Shown here one piece after another: positions 7,983 through 41,537 of a DNA stretch of 64,000 nucleotides. Position numbers and translations under genes: made by a program. Positions within the stretch are counted from its first letter, which is position 1; each line of letters starts with the position of its first letter. The DNA is from Elusimicrobiales bacterium. Lineage in GTDB: Bacteria; Elusimicrobiota; Elusimicrobia; Elusimicrobiales; UBA9959. The DNA lies in contig JAQTOU010000001.1 in NCBI GenBank assembly GCA_028713125.1, positions 204,273 through 268,272 on the forward strand, given 5' to 3'. The notes below the pieces were generated by a model. The model saw only the letters and a program-made list of their open reading frames with translations. It ran no database searches and had not been told where the DNA came from.

Positions 7983-8330
7983 ATAAAAGACCGCGAGATG
8001 CCCAGTCGGGGCCTACCACAGGGGCAGGAACGAAAAACACGTTCGGCCACACCGTGGCCTCACTCGGTATTCGCCCGCCGGGCTATGCAACCGGCGGGCT
8101 CAACGACGGTTTTTCTTATCCTGCCCCTGTGGTCTCCCCTCCGCTCACTTTCTCAGCAAGTTCGTTTTCCGTTAAGCCGTGCAACTCGGGCGGAGACCGT
8201 GCCGACCGGGTTAGCAAAAGCCTGTCGGAGGACGAGGCTTGCGTAAGCGCCGAGTCCGAGACCGGCAGGCGCGCGCACGGTGTGCGCGACGCCGGTTTTG
8301 CGTTCCGGTCGGCACGGTAGGCCGCCCCAG
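7983..8330 (+). repeat. Four-way-junction intergenic element, copy 1
   Basis: This 348-bp element of unknown family opens with a 19-base box (7983-8001) also present in copy 2. Five strand segments then fit a closed four-way junction with no unpaired base between helices. P1 is 8010-8017 with 8316-8323. P2 is 8018-8029 with 8119-8130. P3 is 8131-8137 with 8192-8198. P4 is 8199-8209 with 8305-8315. The P2 arm carries an inverted class I module with hairpins capped by ATGC and ACC. The P4 arm carries a class II module with a CACGGTGTG-capped hairpin. Reading frames crossing it look spurious. It could be a structured RNA made from the queA-tgt transcript or a mobile palindromic DNA repeat. A TTTTT run follows at 8331. 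Confidence 0.85.
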
Positions 8331-33435: not shown

Positions 33436-33780
33436 ATAAAAGACCGCGAGATGCGAAGTCGGGGTCTACCACAGGGGCCAGAACGCAAAACCGGCGTCGC
33501 GCACACCGTGCGCGCGCCTGCCGGTCTCGAGCTCGGCGCTTACGCAAGCCTCGCTCTCCGACGGGCTTTTGCTAACCTGGCCCCTGTGGTCTCCCCTCCA
33601 ATCACTTTGTTAGACGGCGCGTCTCCGTTAAGTCTGAAATCTGGGCGGAGACCGTGCGGGCCGGGTTAGCAAAACCCTCGGAGAGCCCGCCGGTTGCATA
33701 GCCCGGCGGGCGAACACGGAGTGAGGCCACGGTGTGGCCGAACGCGTTTTGCGTTCCGGCACGCACGGTAGGCCGCCCAG
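33436..33780 (+). repeat. Four-way-junction intergenic element, copy 2
   Basis: This 345-bp element shares the 19-base opening box (33436-33454) with copy 1 and the same junction. P1 is 33463-33470 with 33767-33774. P2 is 33471-33481 with 33577-33587. P3 is 33588-33594 with 33647-33653. P4 is 33654-33664 with 33756-33766, with one mismatch. Again there are no unpaired junction bases. Here the P2 arm carries an inverted class II module and P4 a forward class I module, the opposite of copy 1. P1 contains one G.T pair in place of a G-C pair. GCGAGA at 33446-33451 can also pair with TCTCGC at 33785-33790, extending the base stem. It lies between lptB and the convergent TPR gene. No gene is supported inside it. 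Confidence 0.85.
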
Positions 33781-41333: not shown

Positions 41334-41387
41334 ACAGACAGCCGCGCCTATATCCCGGATTCTCCTTAGGCCCTCCTGCAGGGCGAC

Positions 41388-41500
41388 GCAGGGGCCGGGT
41401 TAGTAAAACCCTCGGAGAGCCCGCCGGTTGCATAGCCCGGCGGGCGAACACGGAGCGAGGCCACGGTGTGGCCGAGCGCGTTTTGCGTTCCGGCCCCTGT
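41388..41500 (+). repeat. Solo class I arm of the structured element (copy 3)
   Basis: The 99-base class I module (41395-41493) differs from the copy 2 arm at only 3 positions. It is closed by CAGGGGCCGG at 41389-41398 with CCGGCCCCTG at 41490-41499. Weaker outer pairing (CTGCA near 41376 with TGCAG near 41508) extends the stem. There is no P1, P3 or second arm. It lies between convergent uvrA and the metalloprotease-like gene, where it could also act as a transcript end structure. Confidence 0.82.
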
Positions 41501-41537
41501 GGCGCCATGCAGCCATCCACGCTAAACATTGTGTAAT

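Follow-up and report, generated by a model that had tools for sequence, protein, structure and literature searches.

The GC clusters of yeast mitochondria (GC42 family) are short, palindromic, intergenic mobile repeats which, at one homologous site, stand alone in some strains and are merged in others, and related palindromes shuffle in these mitochondria (PMC4478555). They differ from the hairpins described below in being simple hairpins of 42 nt flanked by short direct repeats; they lack a long, branched arm that is exchanged while the stem, which is free in sequence and covaries, is retained. The organelle palindromes of Volvox carteri (PMC2670323) and the double-hairpin elements of Allomyces cited therein are, like the Elusimicrobiota hairpins, selfish and often nested into large structures. 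They reside, however, in eukaryotic organelles and feature short stems and TAAA loops, and they are not known for orthologous arm swaps. The bacterial REP, BIME and REPIN sequences with their RAYT (TnpA_REP) transposases share with the present family the intergenic position, the palindromic nature and the arrangement as inverted dimers around a spacer of 20-100 bp (PMC3733652, PMC3116915, PMC8266576); the likeness extends to heterodimers of differing stems or loops, to some dimers lying within other palindromes and to a conserved G.A mismatch in some stems. In contrast, they are units of 20-40 bp with an unpaired GTAG/CGTC tag, whereas here the units measure ~130 nt and carry a branched arm, the solo copies are untagged and there is no association with RAYT. 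Template switching and quasipalindrome correction (PMC8794818, PMC7202029) resemble the present case in that stems are created and repaired and multi-base compensatory changes arise in a single event. Yet, known template switching acts within one hairpin or on short segments, while here whole arms appear to derive from other loci.

The window, i.e. the whole analysed stretch of 64,000 nucleotides, is part of a 735-kb contig from an Elusimicrobiota genome of 3.48 Mb (G000). The element under study is a non-coding, folded DNA hairpin found in many intergenic gaps, the tip of which is a cassette of ~94-95 bases that has been replaced repeatedly by cassettes of other types, with the stem below remaining in position and paired. 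Copies 1 and 2 are 25 kb apart on this one contig and possess different, locally paired stems. Together with the solo copy 3 they are composed as follows.

7983..8007, plus strand: opening box of copy 1, between a queA-like and a tgt-like gene
8025..8123, minus strand: P2 arm of copy 1, class I'
8140..8187, plus strand: P3 spacer of copy 1
8203..8311, plus strand: P4 arm of copy 1, class II
8312..8327, plus strand: right half of the P4 stem of copy 1 (closing box)
33436..33460, plus strand: opening box of copy 2, ATAAAAGACCGCGAGATGCGAAGTC (19-base box plus 6), a direct repeat with 7983-8007; the box is conserved genus-wide
33461..33477, plus strand: left half of the P2 stem of copy 2
33478..33580, minus strand: P2 arm of copy 2, class II in minus polarity, reverse complement of the P4 arm of copy 1
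33581..33596, plus strand: right half of the P2 stem of copy 2
33597..33642, plus strand: P3 spacer of copy 2, ~46 nt, not inverted with respect to copy 1
33643..33657, plus strand: left half of the P4 stem of copy 2
33658..33762, plus strand: P4 arm of copy 2, class I in plus polarity, reverse complement of the P2 arm of copy 1
33763..33778, plus strand: right half of the P4 stem of copy 2, which is the closing box GCACGGTAGGCCGCCC
41376..41398, plus strand: left stem of copy 3, a solo hairpin, CTGCAGGGCGACGCAGGGGCCGG
41399..41489, plus strand: class I arm of copy 3, alone on its own stem after a uvrA-like gene, 97% identical to the class I arm
41490..41512, plus strand: right stem of copy 3, CCGGCCCCTGTGGCGCCATGCAG, bearing the recurrent A.G mismatch

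Upon reverse complementation the P2 arm of copy 2 (33478-33580) is identical to the P4 arm of copy 1 (8203-8311) at 97 of 103 aligned core positions (88% once the overhanging ends are counted), while the reverse-complemented P2 arm of copy 1 (8025-8123) matches the P4 arm of copy 2 (33658-33762) at 87 of 99 aligned positions (83% with ends). Shuffled controls do not exceed 59%, and arms occupying the same position in the two copies share 66% (P2/P2) and 71% (P4/P4). The sequence-only reading, which had described the arms as exchanged and reverse-complemented between these copies, is borne out in this respect; its figure of about 95% identity applies to the first match, whereas the second amounts to 88% and is weaker since subclass I' is compared with I. 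It had also stated that P3 is not inverted and that one inversion of the inner region is insufficient to explain the pair. Indeed, for P3 and the stem halves next to it the identity between the copies is 80% in direct and 54% in inverted orientation, which rules out a single inner inversion linking them. The P2 stem (GGGGAGACC..GGTAGGCCCCGACT) and the P4 stem (GGGCGGAGACC..GGTAGGCCGCCC) are homologous in opposite orientation and, hence, each arm has the same orientation relative to its own stem in both copies. As left and right stems represent one hairpin unit in opposite orientations, the strand of an arm changes automatically along with its position.

Such a unit consists of a stem of ~17 bp (10 bp, the recurrent A.G mismatch, ~6 bp) and a branched arm of ~94 nt, adding up to ~130 nt. 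In the "cross" of copies 1 and 2, two such units are arranged head to head on either side of a spacer of ~45 nt, accompanied by a single opening box. The minimum free energies of the folds lie 7.6 and 8.9 standard deviations below those of dinucleotide shuffles (z = -7.6 and -8.9). Among 33 solos 12.3 of 14 stem positions pair when both halves are taken from one copy, compared to 8.0 of 14 for halves combined across copies, and 19 of the 33 show a purine-purine mismatch at stem position 11 (A.G in 15, G.A in 4). Left-stem positions 5-17 are shared to 54% in pairs whose arms are at least 97% identical and to 56% in pairs whose arms are less than 90% identical; accordingly, arm and stem identity are uncorrelated over these solos (Spearman 0.06, permutation p = 0.22), as separate histories of arms and frames, a check proposed with the initial description, would lead one to expect. 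The stem sequence is nearly free while its geometry is constant. The presence of identical arms on unrelated, fully paired stems rules out slow compensatory drift of whole duplicated elements as their source. In the consensus folds, double pair changes are found at 21 of 45 pairs for class II and at 19 of 39 for class I.

Some elements depart from this layout. L046 (G000:C11:362126-366238) is a single hairpin made of a left half of P2 type and a right half of P4 type which do not pair with each other; it seems that both arms of a double have fused here. The opening box is present at both ends, in inverted orientation, of L095 (G000:C35) and of the element at the tgt locus of G001 (L179), which suggests that it is the true outer terminus and that copies 1 and 2 are one-sided derivatives. 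Smaller hairpins (GTGGAGCGAAGCGACAC; GCAAGAAAGTGGCG..) inserted in boxes or arm tips of L034, L039, L041 and L082 as well as of the G026 orthologues of L079 and L080 constitute a third nesting level.

With copy 2 and the arms of class I and class II as queries, at least 68 merged loci were obtained in G000, the class I arm occurring at no fewer than 40 places. The pattern of copies 1 and 2 is, therefore, very probably neither a misassembly nor a one-off, nor is an exchange peculiar to them: many arms are found solo, each on a stem of its own, and 18 loci bear two arms on a recognisable frame. With arm classes assigned from alignments, partly by eye, these doubles include, in frame orientation, (I',II), (II,I), (III,I), (II,II), (I',III) and (III,II), so that the one fixed arm order which would have contradicted the initial description is not found. 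No doubles with class I on both sides were seen in G000 (0/7 with class I at P2 versus 8/11 otherwise, Fisher p = 0.004, the copies not being phylogenetically independent), i.e. the pairing of arms in doubles is not free. Identical inverted arms would form a long palindrome, the instability of which is a likely reason for the absence of I/I doubles. At L054 (G000:C15:116208-120280) a small GIY-YIG-like ORF has a truncated class II arm on one side and a class III hairpin on the other. Among the genomes compared, which appear to be MAGs or drafts, arms are present in 32 of 32 of the genus and in 0 of 29 of other genera. In GTDB the opening box was located in 38 contigs, each of them labelled as Elusimicrobia/Elusimicrobiota or as a "bacterium" MAG; it was not found in viral contigs, and a plasmid and phage search gave no match. 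The family is specific to one genus of groundwater Elusimicrobiota.

The fate of individual hairpins can be followed in the sister genome G026, which is ~92% identical to G000 and syntenic; both flanks were found for 18 loci. At 10 of them, 12 hairpins carry a replaced arm class or subclass: L033, L034 (P2 and P4), L035 (P2), L036, L048b, L051, L065 (P2 and P4), L066 (P4), L080 and L081. At L033, for instance, class I in G000 corresponds to class II in G026 on the stem GGAGGTYGCCTGGCTGACCGG. At solo and P4 hairpins the stem is recognisably kept beneath the replaced arm, with the exception of L081 where it has changed as well; at P2 swap sites the inner stem has changed along with the arm and the outer box is retained. 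Polarity is flipped at L036, L051 and L081. Changes are confined to the tip at L035 (P4), L066 (P2), L079 and L082, and at L078 the whole hairpin is missing in G026. At L037, L048a, L050, L062 and L075 (the latter read from the alignment) the arms are 99-100% identical within flanks of 84-96%. L060, which shows a gross length difference between the two genomes, was left out of interpretation. The exchange borders fall at paired positions, symmetrically about the hairpin, and at several nesting levels, L048b keeping GACGAGG..CCTTGGC outside, and the swaps at L034-P4 and L048b are accompanied by compensatory stem changes. The replacing arm is usually 94-100% identical to another arm of the same genome as opposed to 63-83% to the orthologous arm. 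Judged from these alignments, the comparison shows that arms were replaced on pre-existing stems by arms resembling others in the same genome. Class IV copies of 98-100% identity are present in G026 at several loci that bear I, I' or II in G000, suggesting a lineage-specific spread of the class onto stems that were already there.

Further species give a similar view. At the tgt locus, with the same closing box and flank, G000, G012 and G027 carry class II and G021 carries class I, while copy 1 is inherited in G012 with the same arms. In the pair G024/G028 arms and spacers are replaced at both comparable loci. For L051 the upstream synteny is gone beyond G026. Depending on the species, the slot orthologous to L036 (L366-L377), located after an ABC transporter gene, is either empty or occupied by class II, by class I or by large hairpins of an unrelated kind, and is an apparent hot spot. 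In G021, 3' of lptB (L131), an insert of ~250 bp splits the P2 hairpin of the copy 2 orthologue; this insert terminates in long inverted ends (TCAGAAAACGGAAAAAATCGTACGC..GCGTACGATTTTTTCCGTTTCCTGAGG) and is apparently a further repeat of MITE-like type. Of the initial picture of plug-in arms on a fixed frame, the modules stand, given their varied combinations and the different arm classes at orthologous hairpins of sister species; the fixity does not, as P3, the P2 stem and whole elements turn over between species.

Compared with the described classes of repeats, the P2 and P4 units form an inverted dimer around a ~45-nt spacer, within the 20-100 bp typical of REPINs. No GTAG tag is present at the stem foot of 33 solos, GGTAGGCC occurs in frames where it lies partly inside the stem, and an association with RAYT is seen neither at 20 RAYT loci nor in four arm-bearing genomes which lack a Y1_Tnp hit. 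The constant terminal inverted repeats of classical MITEs are absent, the stem sequences of solos varying from copy to copy, and at L078, the sole filled/empty pair and thus a single case, no direct repeat indicative of a target-site duplication is observed. By eye, the arm ends GTTAGC / GCGTTCC misfit the integron attC core sites RYYYAAC / GTTRRRY. With its nested modules and the exchange at orthologous loci the family agrees with the modular, nested selfish palindromes, as a kind and not by homology.

We consider it probable, if not strongly so, that these are selfish intergenic hairpin repeats built of nested modules, in which template switching or gene conversion, guided by structure, copies arms from one hairpin to another. 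The hairpin would become single-stranded or extruded, most likely at the replication fork, and a growing or broken strand would switch to another hairpin copy, with microhomology provided either by the inner stem (GACCGG/GGCCGG) or by the ends which the arms have in common (GGTTAGCAAAA..TTTTGCGTTCC). The other hairpin's arm would then be copied, with the return occurring via the complementary half-stem. Homology confined to the palindromic inner stem would permit either polarity, whereas homology reaching the asymmetric arm ends would preserve it, and template switching within a hairpin, a process documented as creating, repairing and maintaining hairpin stems (PMC8794818), would keep the stems paired while their sequence drifts. 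Symmetric borders, several nesting levels and either polarity together limit the choice of mechanism: a site-specific recombinase cutting at one place would be expected to leave a single border and, as a rule, a single polarity, while copying guided by base pairing predicts all three facts. Against template switching speaks that the purine-purine mismatch at stem position 11 persists although stem-to-stem correction should erase it, which hints at recognition by a protein. Also, exchange between distant loci via a microhomology of just 6-10 bp would be unusual. Moreover, template switching would account for the exchange of arms and not for the arrival of whole hairpins at new sites.

The persisting mismatch, the main fact left over by template switching, is what secures an appreciable though minor share of probability to a possible alternative, namely that arms are pasted onto stems by a single-strand nuclease or transposase (HUH/Y1, RAYT-like or another structure-specific recombinase) which reads the folded stem with its A.G mismatch. 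Such an enzyme would agree with a stem of fixed geometry, free sequence and recurrent mismatch. RAYT-like Y1_Tnp genes were detected in 24 of 28 genomes tested of the genus as opposed to 2 of 18 from another family of the order, and REP stems of P. aeruginosa likewise possess a conserved G.A mismatch (PMC3733652). However, the exchange borders vary instead of falling at a single fixed position, the 20 RAYT loci, from 20 genomes of the genus, are devoid of arm or frame save two chance-level matches, and G003, G016, G023 and G025, which are at least 90% complete and contain arms, are those without a Y1_Tnp hit. As the RAYT of G000 is flanked by a different small palindrome, CTATTGAGGTTGAGCCTCAATAG, the RAYT/Y1 transposase, although present, was rejected as the mobiliser. 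This sole Y1_Tnp/RAYT-like gene of G000 (L129, G000:C11:518091-521318) lies between copies of the CTATTGAGGTTGAGCCTCAATAG palindrome and near CGACACGCCCTTGTCGGGTT, both of which are also found beside some hairpin elements (L052, L054, L071); G000 appears to harbour a second, conventional REP-RAYT system. Somewhat more doubtful still is the specific proposal that the arms are autonomous hairpin-tip parasites which home onto occupied stems and replace the resident arm in either polarity via a dedicated structure-reading enzyme, which would recognise the fixed geometry of the stem and its A.G mismatch irrespective of the stem sequence. If true, it would mean a mobile cassette system targeting a DNA shape.

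Strong covariation and the fold energies far below those of shuffles would also suit a structured RNA family under selection, with the arm classes as functional RNA variants. We regard this as improbable. An RNA made from one strand would favour G.U pairs, whereas in the solo stems, read on the plus strand of the arm, G.T pairs (15, 10 of them at one position) do not exceed A.C mismatches (13), so that the signature of an RNA strand is absent. The flipped polarity of orthologous hairpins and the arm classes differing between sister species are likewise at variance with an RNA family, as is the placement of the elements, which by rough ORF calls is random with respect to gene direction (38 tandem, 15 convergent, 14 divergent) and, together with the fast turnover, seems to fit selfish DNA better than a regulatory element. 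Over the window Rfam 15 reports two tRNAs only, with one chance-level hit at the element and none there above the gathering score.

Equally improbable as a complete account is the existence of two subfamilies, (I',II) and (II,I), duplicated as whole units with few and old exchanges. Occasionally a double has been duplicated in its entirety, the frame along with its arms (L040 and L069), and the P2 stem is repeatedly accompanied by arms of class I' and II, which, together with the inheritance of copy 1 in G012, leaves this explanation valid for part of the doubles. The 12 hairpins with a new arm since the split of G000 and G026, the class I arm of G021 at the tgt locus and the lack of correlation between arm and stem similarity largely refute it otherwise.

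That short-read assembly misfilled the repeated arms is hardly credible: some draft contigs do start or end within arms (G026:C33, G026:C27, G021:C28, G021:C69), but copies 1 and 2 with their different stems share one contig, a misfill would require class-specific sequence joined to a unique stem inside one k-mer, compensatory stem changes accompany swaps, and G024/G028 offer the same picture.

Selfish, modular hairpins exchanging their arms would have several implications. Strong covariation, usually taken to prove a functional RNA, can arise in fast-changing DNA repeats without strand preference. Dozens of natural, datable tip replacements on inherited stems are available, by which the spread and the pairing of palindromic repeats become directly testable via sister genomes. 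Finally, similar modular palindromes are known mainly from organelles, whereas here they extend across a whole bacterial genus.
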